This document shows positions 42,418 through 56,824 of a stretch of DNA of 64,000 bases, one piece after another. The stretch lies in assembly GCA_937889595.1 (NCBI GenBank), contig CALAOR010000090.1, positions 1-64,000 of the forward strand, read 5' to 3'. A program made the translations under genes and the position numbers. The notes beneath the pieces are model-generated. The model did no database searches. It was not told the DNA's origin and saw nothing but the letters and a program-made list of their open reading frames with translations. Each line of letters starts with the position of its first letter. Positions within the stretch are counted from its first letter, which is position 1. The stretch is from an uncultured bacterium (GTDB lineage Bacteria; Oederibacteriota; PGYV01; Palsa-1178).

Positions 42418-43911
42418 ATGTACCTGTTGGGATATGATATAGGCAGTTCGTCGATCAAAGCCGCCCTCATAGACGCTGAAACCGGAAAAACAGCGGCGTC
42501 AGCCTCGTCCCCGTCAAAAGAAATGGAAATAATCGCCAAAAAAGCCGGATGGGCCGAACAGGACCCGGAAATGTGGTGGGAAAACCTGAAATCCGCCACA
42601 AACCTCATAAAAAAATCTGCAGGTTCAAAAGTTAATGATATTAAAGCCATCGGCATATCATACCAGATGCACGGCCTTGTATGCGTGGACGCCGCGCAAA
42701 AGCCGCTCAGGCCCGCCATAATCTGGTGCGACAGCAGGGCAGTAAAGCTCGGTGAAAAAGCCGCGGGAAAAATAGGGATTAAAAAATCACTTGAACACCT
42801 CCTGAATCTTCCTGGAAATTTTACCGCAGCCAAGCTTGCATGGGTAAAACAGAACGAACCATCCATTTATAAAAAAATATATAAAATAATGCTGCCGGGC
42901 GATTATATTGCCATGAAATTAACCGGCGGGATTGCCACGAGTTATTCGGGTTTGTCCGAAGGTATATTCTGGGATTTTAAAAAGGGCTGGATATCCGGGA
43001 TGCTCCTTGACGCTTTTGGCCTGGATAGGAACCTTCTTGCAGACGCGGGGCCGTCTTTTTCCGTGCGCGGCGTTGTGTCGCAAAAGGCCGCGTCCGAGCT
43101 GGGTATAAATGCGGGTATAAAAGTTTCATACAGGGCCGGGGACCAGCCGAATAACGCGCTGTCCTTAAATGTGCTTGAGCCCGGCGAACTCGCGGCAACA
43201 GCCGGCACTTCGGGAGTCGTGTACGGCGTCTCTGACAGGCCCTCCTATGACATCAAGTCCAGGGTCAATACTTTTGTCCACGTGAACCATACCAAAGACA
43301 ATCCAAGATACGGAACCCTGATGTGCTTAAACGGCACGGGGATATTGAACAGCTGGCTGAGAAAAAACATAACGGACGGCCTTGACTATGCGGATATAAA
43401 CGCGATAGCGGCGGGAGTCGCGCCCGGAGCTGACGGGGTCTTCATACATCCGTACGGCAACGGCAGCGAAAGGACGCTTGAGAATAAGCCTTCCTGCGCC
43501 ATTATTTCAGGCTTGAGCCTTACAACGCATACAAAGGCGCATTTATTGAGGGCGGGCCAGGAAGGCATAGTTTTTGCCCTGAATTACGGCATTGAAATAA
43601 TGAAAGAGATGGGCATAAAAGTAAAGAAAGTAAGGGCCGGACATGCCAATATGTTCTTAAGTCCGGTATTCCGCGAAGTATTCGCGGCTGTAACAGGCGC
43701 GGAAGTGGAATTATATGACACTGACGGATCGCAGGGAGCGGCAAGAGGCGCGGGGATCGGCGCGGGAATATTTAAAAATAACAGGGACGCGTTCAAAGGG
43801 CTGAACATACTCAGCACCACCGCGCCTGATAAAAAACTGGTGAAGTCCTACGTGGGTTTTTATAAGGAATGGAAACAGATATTAAACAATATTTTATTGT
43901 CAAAAGTATAA
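42418..43911 (+). CDS. xylB: Xylulokinase (FGGY family)
   Basis: A 497-residue cytosolic kinase phosphorylating D-xylulose to xylulose 5-phosphate. The N-terminal ATPase strand LLGYDIGSSSIKAALIDAETG, substrate motifs GISYQMHGLVCVD and PAIIWCDSRA, the catalytic Asp in RAGDQPNNALS (D242) and the C-terminal RAGHANMFLSPVFREV agree with FGGY sugar kinases. CCGGAGG precedes the ATG. The neighbouring isomerase supports the xylose assignment over other pentuloses. Confidence 0.9.
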   Translation: MYLLGYDIGSSSIKAALIDAETGKTAASASSPSKEMEIIAKKAGWAEQDPEMWWENLKSATNLIKKSAGSKVNDIKAIGISYQMHGLVCVDAAQKPLRPAIIWCDSRAVKLGEKAAGKIGIKKSLEHLLNLPGNFTAAKLAWVKQNEPSIYKKIYKIMLPGDYIAMKLTGGIATSYSGLSEGIFWDFKKGWISGMLLDAFGLDRNLLADAGPSFSVRGVVSQKAASELGINAGIKVSYRAGDQPNNALSLNVLEPGELAATAGTSGVVYGVSDRPSYDIKSRVNTFVHVNHTKDNPRYGTLMCLNGTGILNSWLRKNITDGLDYADINAIAAGVAPGADGVFIHPYGNGSERTLENKPSCAIISGLSLTTHTKAHLLRAGQEGIVFALNYGIEIMKEMGIKVKKVRAGHANMFLSPVFREVFAAVTGAEVELYDTDGSQGAARGAGIGAGIFKNNRDAFKGLNILSTTAPDKKLVKSYVGFYKEWKQILNNILLSKV

Positions 43912-43945: not shown

Positions 43946-44056
43946 CGCAACCTGAAGGTTGCGCCTACACGGGCAAGAAAGCTATAAGCAAAATGATGAA
44001 CTGAGACAGGCGGGTTGGTTAATATTTGATTATGTAGGCGCAACCTTCAGGTTGCG
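43946..44056. repeat. Perfect inverted REP pair between xylB and xylA
   Basis: A 23-base unit (CGCAACCTGAAGGTTGCG plus CCTAC, 43946-43968) recurs in perfect inverted form at 44034-44056 (GTAGG plus the palindrome). The GTAG feet face inward here, the reverse of the usual REPIN. A further perfect 14-base palindrome CGGCTTTAAAGCCG (44086-44099) lies just before the xylA ribosome-binding site. Confidence 0.75.
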
Positions 44057-44120
44057 GCTCTTGTACGAAATGCTGGAATTAATCCCGGCTTTAAAGCCGT
44101 ACTTTATCAGGAGGAATAAC

Positions 44121-45245
44121 ATGGAAAAGAGTTTTCACTCTATCTGTAAATGGACCTTTAACTCGGGCAAGGGCGGTTTTGTGCCGTCAATGATAAGGCC
44201 TGCATGGTCTTCGGAGAATCTGGACACTGTCGGTATAATCGGGATAATAAAGGACAAGGTCGCGCCGCGGCTGCCAAAGAACATAACGCTCGGTTTTGAG
44301 GCGCATTACAACGGCGAATATAACGAAGATAACGCGGCTTATATAGCCGACGCGCTTGTGGACGCGGGCATGTATCTTGCCATGGCGACCCCGGGAGCGC
44401 ACACGCAGTTCGCGTATGGGGGAATTTCGTCGCTCGACCCGGATGAACGCGCAAAGGCCTGTGAGTTCGGCGCGAGAGCGCTGGAACTTGCCTATGGACC
44501 GCTCAAGAAAGCGTGGCACCCGAAAAAGCAGCCTACGTTTGTCCTGTGGAACGGTTCATTCGGGTATGACGTGGCCACGGTGGGCATAGCAAAGATGTAC
44601 GGGTATTTAAAGAAGAACGTGGCGGACCTGTGCAAGCTGGAAAAAAAGCTAGGCGGTAAAATGATGATAGCGATCGAACCCAAACCCAACGAAGGCCATC
44701 CTGCCATGCTGCTGCCCACTGTTGCAAGCGCCATAATATTCTGGAAAAAACTCGGGGAGGAATACGGCATAGACGTGAAACGCACCGGCGTGAACAAGGA
44801 ATTCGGCCACTCCGAGATGATAGGGCTTGACCACGTGTACGACACGGTGGAAGAGATCGATAACGGAATGCTCGTGCATATGCACTTAAACAGCCAGGGC
44901 TACAATGACGGCATAATCATGGGCGGCCCGGGGAAATACGATATAGACAACGGCTGCAGGGTGAACGGCATGAACATCGCGATTGCCGGTCTCATACAGC
45001 AGGCAGGATACTCAAGGTGGAAGGGCCACGACATGCAGGCGCGCGCGTATGACAACGAGGAACAGGCCATAGACAGGGTGGTGCGTTCCGTGCTTTCGTG
45101 GGAAGCATGCGCTATCGCGGCGGAGAACATAGATTATAAGAACTTAAATAAAGTGCTTGAGAACAGGGAAACGGCAAAGGCTGAAGACGTCATGAGGAAC
45201 GCCGTGGTAGAGGCGCAGAAGACGTTTAATAAGCTGTATAAATAA
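44121..45245 (+). CDS. xylA: Xylose isomerase-family protein
   Basis: A 374-residue TIM-barrel sugar isomerase, predicted to convert D-xylose to D-xylulose in the cytosol with divalent metals. Metal and active-site stretches are FVLWNGSFGYD, MIAIEPKPNEGHPAM, GVNKEFGHSEMIGLD and the MHLNSQGYNDGI region. The ATG at 44121 follows CAGGAGGA; an upstream frame reaches into the repeat and is not used. It diverges from classical XylA motifs, so another aldose substrate is possible. xylB just upstream supports xylose. Confidence 0.82.
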   Translation: MEKSFHSICKWTFNSGKGGFVPSMIRPAWSSENLDTVGIIGIIKDKVAPRLPKNITLGFEAHYNGEYNEDNAAYIADALVDAGMYLAMATPGAHTQFAYGGISSLDPDERAKACEFGARALELAYGPLKKAWHPKKQPTFVLWNGSFGYDVATVGIAKMYGYLKKNVADLCKLEKKLGGKMMIAIEPKPNEGHPAMLLPTVASAIIFWKKLGEEYGIDVKRTGVNKEFGHSEMIGLDHVYDTVEEIDNGMLVHMHLNSQGYNDGIIMGGPGKYDIDNGCRVNGMNIAIAGLIQQAGYSRWKGHDMQARAYDNEEQAIDRVVRSVLSWEACAIAAENIDYKNLNKVLENRETAKAEDVMRNAVVEAQKTFNKLYK

Positions 45246-45312
45246 AAAATATACAGAGAGTAGATAGTAGAGAGTAGACAAGGCAAGGTCAAAAATATCC
45301 CGGGGGATGATA

Positions 45313-46764
45313 GTGAAAAAATTATTGATGTTAATATTGGCGGCTGCAATATCCGCAGGCTGTGCTGCTCCGGCAGTGATAAATACGCAGGATAAAAAGG
45401 AAGCTGTAATGACGGAACCGGTTAAAGACCTGGAAACCATCCAGCGGGATTTTGTGGAACTGCGATACGGCATGTTCATACACTTCGGTATCCTTACATA
45501 CACCGGAGTCTGGTCGCAGGCCAACCTTGACATCACAAAATTTAACCCTGAAGAGCTCAACCCCGGCCAGTGGGCGGATACGGCCAAGGCCGCGGGTATG
45601 AAGTTCGGCGTATTGACAACAAGGCACCATGACGGGTTCGCGCTCTGGCCGACCAATGAGGGCGATTTTTCCGTGAAAAATATCCCGTGGCGCGGCGGCA
45701 AGGGCGATGTGGTGCGCGAATACGTGGACTCTTTCAGGTCGCGCGGATTACTGCCGGGACTGTATTATTCGGTTTGGGACAATACCCAGGGTGTGGGCAA
45801 CCATCCTATAAAGCCCGGCGAGATAGAATATGTGAAAGCCCAGCTCAAAGAACTCCTTACGAATTACGGCCCCATTCCCATACTTGTTCTTGACGGTTAC
45901 TCGTGGAAGATGGGGCATAAAACAATACCCTATGATGACCTGCGCGCTTTTGTAAAATCAATTCAACCGAACTGCCTTGTAGTTGACCACACGCACCTAC
46001 AGTGCCTGTATGATAACGATCTTCTGGTATTTGAGGAACCTAAAGGCGTATTTGCGCCAAAGGGCAATATATTAGCGGCCGCCCAGGACAACAAGATAAT
46101 AGGCGGCAATGACTGGTTCTGGGGCGAGCAGACCGAAAAAGAAAACCCCATGAGCGTGGATGATATAGTGGAAAAACATTTAAAACCGCTTGAGGAGCGC
46201 TATACGGTATTCATTCTGAACTGTCCTCCGAACAGGAAGGGCCTGCTGGACGATAAAATTGTTAAGGTGCTCACCGAAGCCGGCAAAAAGTGGAAACCAA
46301 ATATGAAAAGGCCGCTTTTGCCAAAACAGCCGCCGCAAAATGAATATCCCGTGACAGCAGTATCAGCCGGGGCCACAAGCGGCAAAGCTGCCTTTGCCAT
46401 AGACGGACAGAACGACTCATATTATTACTCCGTATGGGAAACATCGAAGGATTTACCGCAGTCGATAACGCTTGACCTTGGCAAAGATTATGACGATATA
46501 GGGATACTGTGCTATGTTCCGAAATATAAAACAGTTGAAACTCCGACAGACGAGGGCGCGGTCACATCATATGCGGTTTATGTAAGTGAAGACAATGACA
46601 AGTTCATAAAGGCATGCGAAGGAAAGTGGAAGGCCGACAGTTCTATGAAAACCGTTGTTTTTAACCCTGCAAAAGCAAGATACGTGAAGTTCGAGGTGCT
46701 GGAGGCGAAAGACGGTTTCGGAGCCGCCACGGAGGTTAGCGTGGGAAGGGTTTTGAAAAAATAA
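45313..46764 (+). CDS. GH29 alpha-L-fucosidase, lipoprotein, with C-terminal F5/8C-type domain
   Basis: A 483-residue exported lipoprotein (lipobox AAAISAGC). The GH29 barrel begins ELRYGMFIHFGILTYTGVWS and holds TRHHDGFALWPT and the probable nucleophile Asp (D194) in PILVLDGYSW. Residues from about 345 form a discoidin-like sandwich (ATSGKAAFAIDGQNDSYYYSVWE; ITLDLGKDYDDIGILCYVPK). It should release alpha-fucose, as found on xyloglucan side chains. The GTG at 45313 is spaced better from GGGGG than the ATG at 45307. Confidence 0.9.
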   Translation: MKKLLMLILAAAISAGCAAPAVINTQDKKEAVMTEPVKDLETIQRDFVELRYGMFIHFGILTYTGVWSQANLDITKFNPEELNPGQWADTAKAAGMKFGVLTTRHHDGFALWPTNEGDFSVKNIPWRGGKGDVVREYVDSFRSRGLLPGLYYSVWDNTQGVGNHPIKPGEIEYVKAQLKELLTNYGPIPILVLDGYSWKMGHKTIPYDDLRAFVKSIQPNCLVVDHTHLQCLYDNDLLVFEEPKGVFAPKGNILAAAQDNKIIGGNDWFWGEQTEKENPMSVDDIVEKHLKPLEERYTVFILNCPPNRKGLLDDKIVKVLTEAGKKWKPNMKRPLLPKQPPQNEYPVTAVSAGATSGKAAFAIDGQNDSYYYSVWETSKDLPQSITLDLGKDYDDIGILCYVPKYKTVETPTDEGAVTSYAVYVSEDNDKFIKACEGKWKADSSMKTVVFNPAKARYVKFEVLEAKDGFGAATEVSVGRVLKK

Positions 46765-46938: not shown

Positions 46939-49614
46939 ATGTCAAAATCAAAGAACATAAACACCGCGCGCGAGCGCGTCCTTTTCGATGCCGGCTGGAA
47001 ATTCCAGAAGCACGACCCTGCCGCGCATCCACAGATGATCCCGATAACCAGGTGGAAGGTAAAGAACATTGGCAAAGACAGACCCTTGAACGACTCAATG
47101 GCCGCCTCTGACGTTTCAACCGGCGGCTGGCTCACCCTCAAACCCGGCGAGGATGCCTTTGACAAGACGCCGGGTTTTGCCTGGTTCAAAGCAGACCTTC
47201 CGGCACTCAAAGGGCCCGACCGCATACTTCATTTCACTTCAGTCAGCGACGCCGCGGCTGTATATCTTAACGGCGTCAAACTTTATTACCATGAGATATG
47301 GACCGAACCTTTTGAAGTGGACCTTAAAGCCGCCTGGAATGAGAAAGGCTTAAACCATCTGGCAGTGCTGGTGGAGAACTGGTACGGCATCGGTTACATA
47401 GATGAAGCAAACCTGGAACTGCATATCCCGGAAACGGTTTTAAGCGGCCCTGCGGCTATGAAATACGACGACACCGCATGGAGGAGCGTCAATCTCCCAC
47501 ATGATTTTGTAGTGGAAGAAAAGTTTGACGGAACGCTAAAGGAAGCAAGCCATGGATACCTTCCGAAGCATGTGGGCTGGTACAGGAAAACATTCGCGGT
47601 GCCATTATCCGACAAAGGCAAAGCCATATGGGTCGATTTTGACGGCTCGTTCAGGAATACGCGGGTTTGGATAAACGGGCATTACCTAGGCAGGCATTGG
47701 AGCGGATACACCGGTTTCAGGTTTGACATATCAAAGTATATAAATTACGGCAATTCAAATACCATAGCCGTCCGCGTGGACGCGCGCGGGCATGAAGGAT
47801 GGTTTTACGAAGGCGGCGGCATATACCGCCATGTATGGCTCAATAAAGCAAGCACTGTTCGTGTGGAACCATGTGGCGTATATATAGTATCCAAACCGCA
47901 TGGCAAAACCGCTTTGATAGACGTTGCTACAACAGTTATAAATGATACTGAAAAGCCCGTTGAAGTTTTTGTAACTCACGAGATAAAAGACGCGAAAAAT
48001 AAGATTGTGGCAATTTTTTCGGCCAAGGGCAAAGTCAAGGCAAAAGCCGTGATAAAAGCAAAAAGGAAATTATCAAAACCGGCTTTATGGTCGGTGGACG
48101 CCACGAATTTATATAAACTCATAACCACCATCAGGTGCGGCGGCAAGATCATAGATAAAGTGGAAAACACTTTCGGCATACGCTCGATAAAATACGACCC
48201 TGACAAAGGGTTCCTTTTAAACGGCAAACAGGTATTTTTAAAAGGAACCTGCAACCATCAGGACCACGCGGGCATAGGCGCGGCAATAACTGATTCAGTC
48301 TTTAAATTTCGCATAGAAAAGCTCAAGGAAATGGGTTCAAACGCCTACCGCTGCGCTCATAACCCGCCTGCAACGGAACTTCTGGATGAGTGCGACTCAC
48401 AGGGGATGCTCGTGATAGACGAGAACAGGAGATTAGGGGACGCGCCTGAGAATGTTTTCCAGGTTGAATCCATGGTAAAGCGCGACCGCAACCATCCTTC
48501 CATAATAATGTGGTCCATATGCAATGAGGAAAAAGAACAGGGAACGGGCCTTGGCAAAAAAAGGGCCTTAGTGCTGAAAAAAGTAATAAACAAACTCGAC
48601 CCATCCAGGCCTATAACCGCGGCCATGAACGGCGGGTGGGGCGGCGGCATATCGGATGTAATAGATTTGCAGGGATTTAATTACAATATAGTCCAGTACG
48701 ACCCGTTCCGCAAAAAATTTCCCAAAATGCCCATGTACGGCAGCGAGACCGGAAGCACGGTTTCCACAAGGGGAGAGTATGTAAATGATCTGGAAAAAGG
48801 TTATGTGAGCGCGTATGACGTCAATCAGACCGAGTGGTCGCATACGGCGGAAGAGGCATTGGGGCCAATAATGAAAAGGCCACACATATTCGGGACATTC
48901 ATATGGACAGGTTTTGACTACCGCGGGGAACCAACGCCGTATGGCTGGCCGTGTATAAGCTCGCATTTCGGTATAATTGATACGTGCGGCTTTCCAAAGG
49001 ATAATTTCTACTATTACCAGGCGAGGTGGGGTAATAAAGACGTGCTGCATATATTCCCGCACTGGAACTGGCCGGGAAAAGAAGGACAGGAAATAGACGT
49101 GTGGTGCCATTCAAACTATGACCAGCTTGAACTTTTTGTGAACAATAAGCCAAAAGGCTTAAAAGAAATGCCGGAAAACGGACATATTTCATGGAAGGTA
49201 AGGTATGAGCCGGGCGAGCTAAAAGTAAAAGCGTACAAAAAAGGCGTTTTTGCCGTGGAAAAAATAATTGCAACCACGGGAGCGCCTGCTTCGTTAAGGT
49301 TAAGGGCATGGAAGATAAAAATGAAACCCGACGGCCAGGATACTGTACCTGTGACGGTAGAGATCCTGGACGCGCAGGGAAGGATAGTGCCTATAGCGGA
49401 TAACCTTGTGAAGTTCACAATCACGGGCCCCGCAATCATATCCGGCGTAGGCAACGGCAACCCGTCAAGCCACGAGCCTGACAAGGCGGAACAAAGGCAG
49501 GGATTTAACGGGTTGTGCATGGTTTTTGTGAGGGCGGGGTTTAAGGAAGGAAAGGTCGTTTTGAAGGCGGAGTCCGTTGGGCTGAAGGGCTGTGAAATGG
49601 AACTGATGATTTAA
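46939..49614 (+). CDS. GH2 beta-galactosidase-type glycoside hydrolase
   Basis: An 891-residue protein with no signal peptide, hence probably cytoplasmic. Two successive N-terminal jelly-roll parts (about 60-150 and 155-300) precede an Ig-like domain, the TIM barrel (about 395-670) and Ig-like C-terminal domains. The acid/base Glu is E530 in IIMWSICNEE; the probable nucleophile is E603 in MYGSETGS. GH2 includes beta-galactosidases, mannosidases and glucuronidases; galactosidase fits the xyloglucan context. The first jelly roll is an extra module. Confidence 0.88.
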   Translation: MSKSKNINTARERVLFDAGWKFQKHDPAAHPQMIPITRWKVKNIGKDRPLNDSMAASDVSTGGWLTLKPGEDAFDKTPGFAWFKADLPALKGPDRILHFTSVSDAAAVYLNGVKLYYHEIWTEPFEVDLKAAWNEKGLNHLAVLVENWYGIGYIDEANLELHIPETVLSGPAAMKYDDTAWRSVNLPHDFVVEEKFDGTLKEASHGYLPKHVGWYRKTFAVPLSDKGKAIWVDFDGSFRNTRVWINGHYLGRHWSGYTGFRFDISKYINYGNSNTIAVRVDARGHEGWFYEGGGIYRHVWLNKASTVRVEPCGVYIVSKPHGKTALIDVATTVINDTEKPVEVFVTHEIKDAKNKIVAIFSAKGKVKAKAVIKAKRKLSKPALWSVDATNLYKLITTIRCGGKIIDKVENTFGIRSIKYDPDKGFLLNGKQVFLKGTCNHQDHAGIGAAITDSVFKFRIEKLKEMGSNAYRCAHNPPATELLDECDSQGMLVIDENRRLGDAPENVFQVESMVKRDRNHPSIIMWSICNEEKEQGTGLGKKRALVLKKVINKLDPSRPITAAMNGGWGGGISDVIDLQGFNYNIVQYDPFRKKFPKMPMYGSETGSTVSTRGEYVNDLEKGYVSAYDVNQTEWSHTAEEALGPIMKRPHIFGTFIWTGFDYRGEPTPYGWPCISSHFGIIDTCGFPKDNFYYYQARWGNKDVLHIFPHWNWPGKEGQEIDVWCHSNYDQLELFVNNKPKGLKEMPENGHISWKVRYEPGELKVKAYKKGVFAVEKIIATTGAPASLRLRAWKIKMKPDGQDTVPVTVEILDAQGRIVPIADNLVKFTITGPAIISGVGNGNPSSHEPDKAEQRQGFNGLCMVFVRAGFKEGKVVLKAESVGLKGCEMELMI

Positions 49615-49707: not shown

Positions 49708-51693
49708 ATGCGTTTAAAATCTGTTTTGGTCCTGTTTTTGTTACTGCTCACTTCCATCTGCCTCGCCGACGCGGTTGAAACCACCATCGACATCAATGCC
49801 GCGGTTACGGTCAACACTTTCAGGCCTTTCAACATTTTCGGCAACAATGTCAACGGCTGGTCCAACCCTGTCCCGCTCAAGGACAAGATCCAGGGAGCGG
49901 GCAACTTTATCCTTCGCTATCCCGGAGGCTCCTGGGGTGACTCTTTTTTTTGGAACGGAAACGGGGATTATGACGCCTCCGGCAACTGGGTGGCGAGCGA
50001 AACCGAGTACACCAACAGCAAAACAATGAAGGATAACGGCATGCTTTACGACGCCGCGAAAATAATCGACGGCAAGGATGAGACAGCCTGGCGCTCGAAC
50101 GCGGACACTGATTTCCCGAAGGCACAGTGGGTTTACGTGGACCTGAACAACAAGAGGATGCCCGACAAAGTAGTCATAACATGGGGTGACAAAACAAACA
50201 AGGAATATCCATATGCGAAGAGGTTCTCGGTGCAGTATTGGGACACTAAGGAACCGAGGCAGTGGATGCCATACGGCGCGCCGAATAATGCGTGGCTCGA
50301 CACTTCGGCGAAAAATCTCACAAGCACCGGCGGGACCCAGGAAATTTCTTTTGAACCGGTGGAAGCGCATTATGTGCGTATTTTGATGACGGAGAGTTCT
50401 GCTGGAAAGAATGGGACATATTCCATGGCTTCGATCAAGGTTTACGAAGACGGCAAGGAACTTGAGATAAAGGATAATAATGCCATAGTGGCCTCGTCAT
50501 GCAACAGCGCCTGTGAGCTCGGTGACAGGCAGATATTCGGGTTTGATGATTACATGAAATTCATGAAATCCTTCGAGCCAAAAGCGGAGCCGCTTATTAT
50601 AGTAAATGTCGGCAGCGGCACGCCGCAGCTTGCCTCCTCATGGGTCAAGTACGCCAATATCACAAAAAAGTACGGCATCAAGTATTGGGAAATAGGCAAT
50701 GAGAACGGCGGCCAGTGGGAAGTGGGCGGCCCTATGAACTATTATGATTACACGAGGAAGTTCATAAAATTATACGAGGCCATGAAAGCCGCTGATCCTT
50801 CCATCACGATAATAGCGCAGGGGCAGTTTGACGGCAACTCGCAGAACTTTGATGGAGTGCCGCTCATAAAGGCCATCGCCGACAGGCTGGCAAAAGAGAA
50901 AAAGGTCAAGTACCTTTCCGGCGGGATTGTAACGCACCAGTATCCCTCATGGGGCTCGACAGTCGAGGCCGTCCTCGCGTCGCCGGAAAAGAATTTTGAC
51001 GACATGGACAAAGCCATAAAGGAACAGCTTAAGGGATATCCGGAGCTTGCCAATATACCCGTATGGATAACCGAGTTCAATTCTGAAGGCAATTTAAAAC
51101 CCAGGAATATATCGACCCGCCTTGACAACGCGCTCTTTATCGCGAACTATATCGCCGAGTTTATAAAACATTTCGGGAGCCGCGGGCACACCAACATGTG
51201 GGACACGATAAACGGCGGCGATGCCCTGACCAACGTGAACGGCGGCGACCACGGTTATTTGCAGGCTGACGACGGCCCGTACAAAAACCAGGAAAGGGCC
51301 ACATACTGGGCCATGAAAATGCTTACGAATTACTGGTCCAAGAGCGGCGACACGGAAGTACATAAGCTTGTGGATACAAAGTCATCGGAGAAATTCCTCG
51401 CGGCGTACACGGACCTAAAACCGGATGGAAGCCTGTCGTTAATTGTTGTCAATAAGGATCCCAAGGCCCCGTATAAAACAACAGTCAGCGTCGCGGGTTA
51501 TAAAGCCGCGTCCGAAGCGAAAGTATACAGTTTTGACAAGTCAAACTACGACTGGAAAACAGACAATGCCCCATACCATGCTGACCCGGACAACGCGCCG
51601 TCGGAGTCGACGATAGGCAACGCCGGGGCAAAATTCGAGTACACATTCCAGCCGTATTCGATAACGGTGATAAGCATGAAGAAGGCGGAGTAG
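49708..51693 (+). CDS. Alpha-L-arabinofuranosidase-like enzyme with inserted F5/8C-type domain
   Basis: A 661-residue exported enzyme (signal SVLVLFLLLLTSICLADA). The barrel begins FILRYPGGSWGDSFFWNGNG (residues 68-87), as in GH51-like enzymes. It is then interrupted by a discoidin/F5/8C-like domain (about 112-250; AAKIIDGKDETAWRSNAD, VEAHYVRILMTES) before resuming at FGFDDYMKFMKSF. The acid/base is E332 in WEIGNENGG and the nucleophile E456 in VWITEFNSEG. A C-terminal beta sandwich follows. It probably removes arabinose from hemicellulose. Confidence 0.85.
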   Translation: MRLKSVLVLFLLLLTSICLADAVETTIDINAAVTVNTFRPFNIFGNNVNGWSNPVPLKDKIQGAGNFILRYPGGSWGDSFFWNGNGDYDASGNWVASETEYTNSKTMKDNGMLYDAAKIIDGKDETAWRSNADTDFPKAQWVYVDLNNKRMPDKVVITWGDKTNKEYPYAKRFSVQYWDTKEPRQWMPYGAPNNAWLDTSAKNLTSTGGTQEISFEPVEAHYVRILMTESSAGKNGTYSMASIKVYEDGKELEIKDNNAIVASSCNSACELGDRQIFGFDDYMKFMKSFEPKAEPLIIVNVGSGTPQLASSWVKYANITKKYGIKYWEIGNENGGQWEVGGPMNYYDYTRKFIKLYEAMKAADPSITIIAQGQFDGNSQNFDGVPLIKAIADRLAKEKKVKYLSGGIVTHQYPSWGSTVEAVLASPEKNFDDMDKAIKEQLKGYPELANIPVWITEFNSEGNLKPRNISTRLDNALFIANYIAEFIKHFGSRGHTNMWDTINGGDALTNVNGGDHGYLQADDGPYKNQERATYWAMKMLTNYWSKSGDTEVHKLVDTKSSEKFLAAYTDLKPDGSLSLIVVNKDPKAPYKTTVSVAGYKAASEAKVYSFDKSNYDWKTDNAPYHADPDNAPSESTIGNAGAKFEYTFQPYSITVISMKKAE

Positions 51694-52075: not shown

Positions 52076-52154
52076 AAAACGACAGTTTAATATAAACAGG
52101 TTAAAAAACACATTGGGCAAGCTTGTCCATGAATCTGCATTAAGGAGGCAAAAA

Positions 52155-53108
52155 ATGAAAAGAACGACAATGTCCGTCATTTTAATGTTTATTGCGGTGT
52201 TTGGCGCTATGGCGGACAGTTCAGAGGTCTCTTCACCGGCCTCTGATTATTCAGCTCTTGCAATAGTCCCCGGCGGCACATATACCCAGACCGATGAAAC
52301 CGGGATAAATAGTTTCCGCACTACGGTCTCCGCATTCAGGATGGGAAAGTATGAAGTGACGTATGAACTGTGGAACACGGTGTATCAGTGGGCAGTTGCC
52401 AACGGGTATGTTTTTCAAAATGCGGGCGTGGAGAGCCCCGGAAGAAAAGCCGGAGCCGCGCCTACGGACGCAAAGTATGAGCCTGTAGAGGCGGTAAATT
52501 GGCGCGACGCCATAGTGTGGTGCAATGCTTATAGCAGAAAATCCGGGTTGAAACCCGTGTATTATTTGGACCCGGGTTTTGCCGCGCTGATTAGAGATTC
52601 TACAAGCGGGGCTTATGCAGGCAGGACCTGCACGGCAGCCGGCTGTTATGATGATCCATATGTTAACTGGAACGCAAACGGTTACAGGCTGCCTACGGAA
52701 GCCGAATATCAGTATGCGGCAAGCTATAAAGACGGGTCAAACTGGACGCCGTATAATTACGCCAGCGGCGCAGCATCGGGCTATGCTGATGAGCCAGCAA
52801 CAGGACTTGTCGCGTGGTATCACGCAAATTCCGGGCGCGTTCCGCATGATGTCGGCGGCAAAAAAGCAAATGCGCTTGGCATATACGATATGTCGGGTAA
52901 TATGTGGGAATGGTGCTGGGACTGGTATGGGCCGTATCCAAGTGCGGCAACTGTGAATTACAGGGGACCTGCAAACGGTTCGAGCCGCGTGATGCGGGGC
53001 GGTTGTTTCAGCAATTACGCGGGCGGCATGCAGGTGGGCGAACGCGGCGTGAATCTTCCGTTCTTCCTGTTTGGCAGTGTAGGATTCCGCGTGGCGAGGA
53101 TTAAATGA
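52155..53108 (+). CDS. Exported formylglycine-generating-enzyme-like (SUMF1) domain protein
   Basis: A 317-residue protein with a signal peptide (SVILMFIAVFGAMA). The fold markers are MGKYEVTYELWNTVYQWA, PVEAVNWRDAIVWCNAYSRK, GYRLPTEAEYQYAAS, MSGNMWEWCWDWYG and SRVMRGGCFSNYA. The family holds sulfatase-activating enzymes but also many non-catalytic surface proteins. No sulfatase is nearby, so a structural or other role is as likely. TTAAGGAGG precedes ATG 52155. Confidence 0.88.
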   Translation: MKRTTMSVILMFIAVFGAMADSSEVSSPASDYSALAIVPGGTYTQTDETGINSFRTTVSAFRMGKYEVTYELWNTVYQWAVANGYVFQNAGVESPGRKAGAAPTDAKYEPVEAVNWRDAIVWCNAYSRKSGLKPVYYLDPGFAALIRDSTSGAYAGRTCTAAGCYDDPYVNWNANGYRLPTEAEYQYAASYKDGSNWTPYNYASGAASGYADEPATGLVAWYHANSGRVPHDVGGKKANALGIYDMSGNMWEWCWDWYGPYPSAATVNYRGPANGSSRVMRGGCFSNYAGGMQVGERGVNLPFFLFGSVGFRVARIK

Positions 53109-55192: not shown

Positions 55193-56824
55193 CTATTTAA
55201 CCGCCGGTATCTTCACAAGCATCATGGAACCCGCGGGCATTTTAACCGAGAACGTATTTCCCGTCACTACATCCATGCCGTCTCCAGGCAGGGAAGCAAT
55301 CGCCGGGTCTTCTACTCCGTTTATCTTTATGTGCATGCGCTGCATGAGCGGCTCGTCTTTGCCGTACCATGTGCTGCCTGAGGGTTCGAAGGTCCAGCTC
55401 TTACCTTTAATTCCAGCGGTGAAACCTGCTATTGCCAGGTCTGCCTGTGCGTTGTTTTTCCAGTCGTTGTTTACCAGGAATACTGTGAGGTTGCCTTCGG
55501 CGTCTTTTGATGCCCAGGCCCTGATCCTGTTGCCTGCTTTTTCACTTATAACCCAGTTTTCCGGATACTTTCCCGGGACCGCGTTTGGCGTGTATTCAGG
55601 GTAGTTGCATTCCACAAGTTGTTTGCCGAATATCCTTGACAGGTACGGGTAAATATAATATGTCGGCCTGGCTGAGTCTTTTGGGTTGTCGTCGGCCACG
55701 TCGGCGTTTACTCCTGTGCGCAGGAGGCCGAAGTCTTCCATTTTTTTCTTGTCATAGCCGTTCTTTAGGTCCCATATGTTTGCTCCCCCCCATCCCAGCC
55801 TTGCCATTTCCAGTATGAACTGTGAGCAGAAAAGCGCGTCCACGTAATCATCATATTTGTATTCCAAAACAGACCTGAACTCCGTGCACCAGTAGGGGAT
55901 CTTGCCCGCGTACTGCTTGCCCAGGTACTGGCCCAAAAGGCCGTCCTGTATCGTGGTGGCTGATACGGCCACATGCACATTATCCATTATCCTCGCGTCA
56001 AGTACCGGGCTTGCCCCGTATAATGTCTTGTCCCAGTTCGGCGCTTTTTCAACGGCGCGTTCGCCCATCCAAATGGGATAGATGTGCGTTATCATGAAAT
56101 CGGGGATGCATTTCTTTTTTGCGAACGCCCGCAGGGCTCCTATAGTGAACTTCACGTGGTCATACTGGCACTGCGCGCCTATCTGTATCTTTGGGTCGAC
56201 TTTTTTCATGGCATTGTAGAAATCCACAAAGTTCTTTCCGTATAAGTCGCCGCCTTCCTCGTCGTCGCTCCAGAAACCCTTTTCACCGCTCCCGAACTGC
56301 TCATTGCCTATTTCCCAATATTTAACATAATGCGCACCGCCATTGGTGACGTTCATGTACTTGACCCAATCGGCCGCTTTTTTGACCGCTGCTTCATGGC
56401 CCTGGTCCTTGTCGCACCAGTTGCCCGCGTAGTTCACTATTATCTGAAGCTGCGCGCCGCAGGCGTTAGCGAAATCTATCCCTTTTTGCATGGTGATCGG
56501 CACCCAGGAAAATTTGCAGGACGCCATATTTTCCCAGTCAACTATGTCGCTGTAGCTTCCCCCGGGGAAGCGGATGACGCCGGGCTGCATGGCGCGGACG
56601 GCTTCATTATAAGCCCCGTCCTTGCCGTCGGCTGTGCCTTCCCATACCGCGATGTTCTGGCCGAATATTTCCGGCGATATCGGGTGTACGGTTTTTGCCG
56701 CGTCAATACTGACGGCTACAGGCGCGCTTGTTGTTTTGATCGCGGCACCCGCGCATGACATGACGGCAAAAGACAGGACAGCAGCTAAAACAAAATAGAA
56801 AAATTTTCTGACGTTTTTTTTCAT
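55193..56824 (-). CDS. GH51-like alpha-L-arabinofuranosidase lipoprotein
   Basis: A 543-residue exported lipoprotein (lipobox FAVMSC, C24). The barrel has VIRFPGGSYSDIVDWENM (residues 83-100), acid/base E175 in KYWEIGNEQFG, THIYPIW near residue 246 and nucleophile E315 in IPYWCTEFRS. A C-terminal beta sandwich (about 430-543) completes the GH51-type layout. It is on the minus strand, divergent from the SLH porins, and has its own promoter with an operator-like palindrome. It is paralogous to the enzyme at 49708, without the inserted domain. Confidence 0.87.
   Translation of the reverse strand: MKKNVRKFFYFVLAAVLSFAVMSCAGAAIKTTSAPVAVSIDAAKTVHPISPEIFGQNIAVWEGTADGKDGAYNEAVRAMQPGVIRFPGGSYSDIVDWENMASCKFSWVPITMQKGIDFANACGAQLQIIVNYAGNWCDKDQGHEAAVKKAADWVKYMNVTNGGAHYVKYWEIGNEQFGSGEKGFWSDDEEGGDLYGKNFVDFYNAMKKVDPKIQIGAQCQYDHVKFTIGALRAFAKKKCIPDFMITHIYPIWMGERAVEKAPNWDKTLYGASPVLDARIMDNVHVAVSATTIQDGLLGQYLGKQYAGKIPYWCTEFRSVLEYKYDDYVDALFCSQFILEMARLGWGGANIWDLKNGYDKKKMEDFGLLRTGVNADVADDNPKDSARPTYYIYPYLSRIFGKQLVECNYPEYTPNAVPGKYPENWVISEKAGNRIRAWASKDAEGNLTVFLVNNDWKNNAQADLAIAGFTAGIKGKSWTFEPSGSTWYGKDEPLMQRMHIKINGVEDPAIASLPGDGMDVVTGNTFSVKMPAGSMMLVKIPAVK

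Follow-up and report, generated by a model that had tools for sequence, protein, structure and literature searches.

The window, a stretch of 64,000 nucleotides on contig CALAOR010000090.1 of an uncultured bacterium, encodes a protein that, as judged from sequence comparisons and a predicted structure, is a GH51-like (clan GH-A) retaining glycosidase with an F5/8 type C (F5/8C) module inside its catalytic domain. The reading that we favour, and hold to be probable, is of a secreted enzyme of the endo-beta-glucanase type in which the module is built into the beta2-alpha2 loop of the barrel and holds the polymer. The parts of the gene, its operon and a paralogue are listed in Table 1. The frame of 661 codons contains no internal stops, and full-length relatives at 92–59% identity show an unchanged domain order; a chance match or a misread frame is ruled out by the E-values, by the absence of stops and by the many genomes that carry the arrangement.

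Table 1. Features of the inserted enzyme, its operon partners and its paralogue (window positions; residue numbers are those of the inserted enzyme)
Feature	Position	Strand	Basis
Whole gene, predicted secreted GH51-like glycosidase with internal F5/8C module, 661 aa	49708..51693	+	Single open frame
Signal peptide, residues 1-21	49708..49770	+	By eye, MRLKSVLVLFLLLLTSICLADA
Catalytic domain part 1, residues 22-82	49771..49953	+	Model strands; alignment with paralogue and, via paralogue, with GH51 structures
Entry connector of beta2-alpha2 loop, residues 83-104	49954..50019	+	Conservation count
Inserted F5/8C (CBM32-like) module, residues 105-247	50020..50448	+	PF00754; family profile; model all-beta
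Exit connector, residues 248-278	50449..50541	+	Model; alignment
Remaining barrel, residues 279-545	50542..51342	+	phmmer to GH51 structures; model
Predicted acid/base E332 (IGNE motif)	50701..50703	+	Family conservation; aligns with GH51 GNE motif
Predicted nucleophile E456 (ITEFN motif)	51073..51075	+	Found in each row checked
C-terminal beta-sandwich, residues 546-661	51343..51690	+	Model strands 552-659; Foldseek to GH51 two-domain structures
Xylulokinase-like FGGY kinase, first of run	42418..43911	+	TIGR01312 E 2.8e-97, below curated cut-off; FGGY Pfam
Xylose isomerase-like	43959..45245	+	TIGR02631 E 8.6e-19, below cut-off
GH29 alpha-L-fucosidase, C-terminal F5/8C module	45307..46764	+	PF01120 E 3e-35; PF00754 at 349-476
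GH2 beta-galactosidase GalA	46939..49614	+	NF041462 1012.8 bits, over cut-off 900
Paralogue without insert (control)	55193..56824	-	Alignment; loop count

An AlphaFold2 model built from 29 relatives (mean pLDDT 88.7, pTM 0.88) places barrel elements on both sides of the insert, with strands at 23-38, 45-49 and 68-73 in the first part, where an R-Y-P-G-G motif closes strand beta2, and helix 279-287 and strand 294-299 after it. The N-terminal helix (2-17) is modelled at low confidence, and relatives have a similar kind of N-terminus. By Foldseek the whole model matches two-domain structures of GH51 (E 2e-23; TM 0.67 when normalized to target length), and the (beta/alpha)8 barrel, beta-sandwich, GNE acid/base and nucleophilic glutamate that characterize the GH51-like fold of clan GH-A are all present. 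At the sequence level, phmmer and profile searches matched the chain from residue 273 onward, up to its C-terminus, to GH51 arabinofuranosidases; Pfam gave no glycosidase family above cut-off, and no NCBIfam GH51 model passed its threshold, ArfA scoring 33.9 bits against a cut-off of 625.

The insert itself was recognized by PF00754 (residues 108-233, E 3.4e-15, 56.7 bits; curated cut-off 28.2) and PF22633 (residues 118-225, E 2.5e-13, 50.9 bits; curated cut-off 27.8), which at E 0.01 also matched 24 and 26, respectively, of the 29 relatives. In the whole-protein model, residues of about 105-247 form a compact, all-beta sandwich of some 140 residues and eight strands, with pLDDT by blocks mostly 84-97. 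A sequence-only reading had proposed that a discoidin-type domain of about 140 residues, at 112-250, interrupts the barrel, and had allowed that a predicted structure might instead assign those residues to the barrel or reveal no F5/8C fold. The model keeps the insert separate from the barrel and the F5/8C profile is matched, so that the proposal holds with somewhat shifted boundaries. The extra length between 83 and 278 thus consists of the F5/8C fold plus two family-specific connectors. In the model the module separates strand beta2 from helix alpha2, two elements of a catalytic domain on one chain, and because the profile of non-inserted paralogues aligns the PGG motif and the alpha2/beta3 segment with 3s2c, the site can be equated with the beta2-alpha2 loop of GH51. 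Residues N83, G86 and W94 of the entry connector are invariant in 35 inserted relatives, which suggests, as far as conservation can tell, that the lid part of this loop has been retained. Within the insert, the conserved residues D121, W128, W159, Y177, W196 and R224 may be structural. Its nearest solved relatives are the discoidin domains DD1 and DD2 of a Paenibacillus chitosanase (2rv9, 4zxe; E 5e-17 with the family profile), which belong to a family of sugar binders and are appended modules, unlike the internal insert described here.

A paralogue encoded from 55,193, which the sequence-only reading had offered as an internal control, is a valid, distant one: its product is 27% identical and aligns at residues 24-82 and 309-622, skipping the stretch between. 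When loop length was taken as the number of residues between the equivalents of W82 and F279, the inserted protein had 198 and the paralogue 16, and the 58 relatives fell into two non-overlapping classes, 36 with 190-239 residues and 22 with 6-66. The model of the paralogue is poor (pLDDT 66) but is nearest to GH51 structures. Four relatives (L077, L051, L052 and L029, from genomes G001 (two), G002 and G177) lack the module and have a loop of 54-66 residues whose WNG and related motifs recur in the connectors of inserted members. From these shared motifs, the module may have entered a loop that was already long, with the four as candidate pre-insertion forms.

The sequence-only reading implied that the arrangement is a rarity and suggested looking for it elsewhere; the search showed it to be an established feature of a large, old family, and binding modules within other glycosidase barrels have been published (PMC7848910). 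The 45 genomes covered in the host's phylum include many with full-length inserted copies, often several, giving 25 distinct full-length relatives; the host genome itself holds a second copy (G000:C75, 1010 aa). The closest named relatives come from FCPU426 and Goldiibacteriota MAGs, which makes the host a probable member of that phylum. The inserted form was also found in at least 85 of 168 Fibrobacterota genomes, counting rows with E below 1e-90. About 340 genomes from outside the host's phylum yielded it twice, in one genus, together with one degenerate copy. We take the genus to be Fibrobacter, as the F. succinogenes 1,3-1,4-beta-glucanase sequence is found at 100% in three of its genomes. 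The degenerate copy (L074:1492-3870), a lone and very divergent relative from another phylum, has GEEPDG in place of GNE and no PGG motif, and its activity has possibly been altered or lost. Elsewhere, of two adjacent copies (L038:1-5701; G030:C110:94200-99900), one has a TAG within it and the other is divided between two frames.

In a tree built from the barrel only, with the insert left out, a single branch separates the inserted rows from all others with support of 97/93; with two very long rows included, support is weak (45/97). The distribution is compatible with one origin, the tree not separating gain from loss. Insert and barrel show similar identities in pairwise comparisons (e.g., 43/45%, 60/60% and 17/25%), and such divergence in step is as expected if they were inherited together. 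An assembly chimera or fused gene pair, for which nothing speaks beyond the odd domain order, is hardly conceivable given a frame free of stops and an arrangement that recurs in so many relatives of both the host's phylum and the Fibrobacterota. The module type also occurs alone in other proteins, as seen from profile matches confined to positions 110-253.

Two F. succinogenes-like genomes (G486 and G512) have exactly two matches each to the family profile, one carrying CBM30 and CBM11 and equivalent to Cel51A, the other being the inserted protein. The genome paper of strain S85 lists two GH51 genes, Cel51A (Fisuc_3111) and Fisuc_2081 (FSU_2610), and tabulates the latter as an 'endoglucanase' with a signal peptide and no CBM, characterized as a cellulase with reference to Brumm et al. 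2010 (PMC3079729). In G486 the inserted gene has a GH3, a GH9 and a further GH3 gene at distances of 19.6, 64 and 117 kb, in agreement with Fisuc_2065, 2033 and 1985 at 16, 48 and 96 genes from Fisuc_2081. Since the other GH51 match is Cel51A and the gene order agrees, the inserted F. succinogenes protein corresponds to Fisuc_2081, an identification made by elimination and gene order and not from the sequence of Fisuc_2081 itself. A 2018 paper calls Cel51A the sole GH51 protein of S85, so Fisuc_2081 has apparently been reassigned, and its internal module seems to have gone unrecognized so far. Cel51A differs in having no insert and in carrying its CBM30 and CBM11 at the N-terminus. Fisuc_2081 differs from the window enzyme in its C-terminal extension, and the two inserted proteins are only about 25% identical, a level at which specificity can change, which weakens the endo-glucanase reading.

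With regard to activity, the predicted catalytic residues E332 and E456 are kept in essentially all family rows. The GH51 arabinofuranosidases compared in a structural study share Glu28, Asn175, Glu176, Tyr242 and Glu298 (TxGH51 numbers), and Glu28 of the T. xylanilyticus enzyme, described as absolutely conserved among the GH51 enzymes compared, contacts arabinose O3 (PMC7604909). The window protein has counterparts of the other four (Asn331, Glu332, Tyr412 and Glu456), but in the alignment neither it nor its family has a counterpart of this 'EHLG' glutamate, the EHLG stretch being an insertion in GH51 arabinofuranosidases relative to the inserted family. This rules out GH51 arabinofuranosidase as a default label; of the earlier description, 'arabinofuranosidase-like' is apt for the fold and not for the activity, also because cellulase is the listing given to the related genes of F. 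succinogenes. Together, the residue comparison and the F. succinogenes listing point, with moderate confidence for the window protein, to an endo-beta-glucanase-type activity as likelier. A true GH51 alpha-L-arabinofuranosidase, acting with its inserted module on the side chains of arabinoxylan or arabinan, would account for the best PDB sequence and fold matches, which are to such enzymes, and would suit the adjoining genes for xylose isomerase and xylulokinase. Set against the absent arabinose-contacting glutamate, an ArfA score far under its cut-off and fucosidase and beta-galactosidase partners that are ill-suited to arabinoxylan, it is distinctly unlikely.

The gene neighbourhood bears on the polymer. 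Five co-directional genes on the forward strand, separated by 48, 62, 175 and 94 bases, end with the inserted enzyme; the contig also carries a GH31 gene. The side chains of xyloglucan consist of fucose, galactose and xylose, and because the operon partners handle these three, xyloglucan is suggested, and no more than suggested, as the polymer. Neighbours are not shared by all relatives, the gene in G034 and G035 adjoining a GH36 alpha-galactosidase and a LacI regulator. The F5/8C module of the GH29 fucosidase occupies the usual C-terminal place and is weakly similar to the inserted one; it was considered as a local donor and rejected, the resemblance being weak (13 bits) and showing no sign of such an origin. 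An FGE-sulfatase-type protein (52113-53108) lies 419 bases beyond the operon. In a sister genome (L001:7099-9099), the gene following the inserted enzyme specifies an acetylesterase of the SASA type in which a CIA30/CBM11-like jelly roll (residues 316-418) precedes the second of two SASA stretches; this is apparently another enzyme with an internal module. One of the Goldbacteria has been obtained with cellulose as substrate, and release of cellobiose was seen with three of its GH9 enzymes (PMC7031533).

The beta2-alpha2 loop is mobile in the arabinofuranosidases TxAbf and THSAbf, where it adopts an open or a closed position and influences both the -1 subsite and endo/exo behaviour (PMC4939007). 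On the endo-beta-glucanase reading, the enzyme would cut beta-1,4-glucan chains internally while the module would keep the polymer on the lid or next to the cleft; binding would then be tied to cleavage by a fixed spatial arrangement, in place of the flexible linker of a tethered module. It could also be that the module has lost sugar binding and serves only as a structural part or steric gate, shaping the cleft or holding the lid. Such a role was suspected for the inserted beta-sandwich of the fungal MgGH51, for which binding to xylan or cellulose was not detected (PMC7604909), and many of the conserved residues of the insert could be core residues; but the nearest solved modules, those of the chitosanase, come from sugar binders, and the module type also stands alone in other proteins, and we regard a purely structural role as doubtful. 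A further extension of the favoured reading, in which the module rides on a moving lid and capture of the polymer opens or closes the active site, would make this a glycosidase whose own module acts as its gate, from a family not recognized as such and including a rumen cellulase with an overlooked internal CBM; we consider this unlikely.

Binding modules inserted in catalytic domains are known for GH10, in the beta3-alpha3 loop, and for SusG (PMC7848910). The GH10 xylanases Xyn10C and Pm25 are likewise secreted polysaccharide hydrolases with modules in a catalytic-face loop of a (beta/alpha)8 barrel, but have one to three of the CBM4/22 type in beta3-alpha3, whereas the window enzyme is GH51-like with a single F5/8C module in beta2-alpha2. 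The alpha-amylase SusG carries CBM58 in domain B, within the catalytic domain, but is a GH13 enzyme acting on alpha-glucan, with module and site both unrelated (PMC7848910). MgGH51 is a GH51 arabinofuranosidase with an extra beta-sandwich within the chain, but there the insertion follows the N-terminal strand of the sandwich domain, outside the barrel, was not reported as F5/8C, and leaves the arabinose site intact (PMC7604909). A literature search, incomplete for subscription papers, found other inserted CBMs and no F5/8C module in a GH51-like beta2-alpha2 loop, and relative to the known examples the module type, site and family appear to be new.

In nearly all cases binding modules are regarded as tails that can be detached, and the window enzyme has one fixed in the loop that in GH51 enzymes governs substrate entry, where it has persisted while at least two phyla diverged. 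The finding bears on cellulose digestion by Fibrobacter, which has few recognized CBMs, most of the F. succinogenes cellulases having none according to its 2011 genome paper. The natural relatives without the insert offer an internal control for whether an inserted module changes catalysis.
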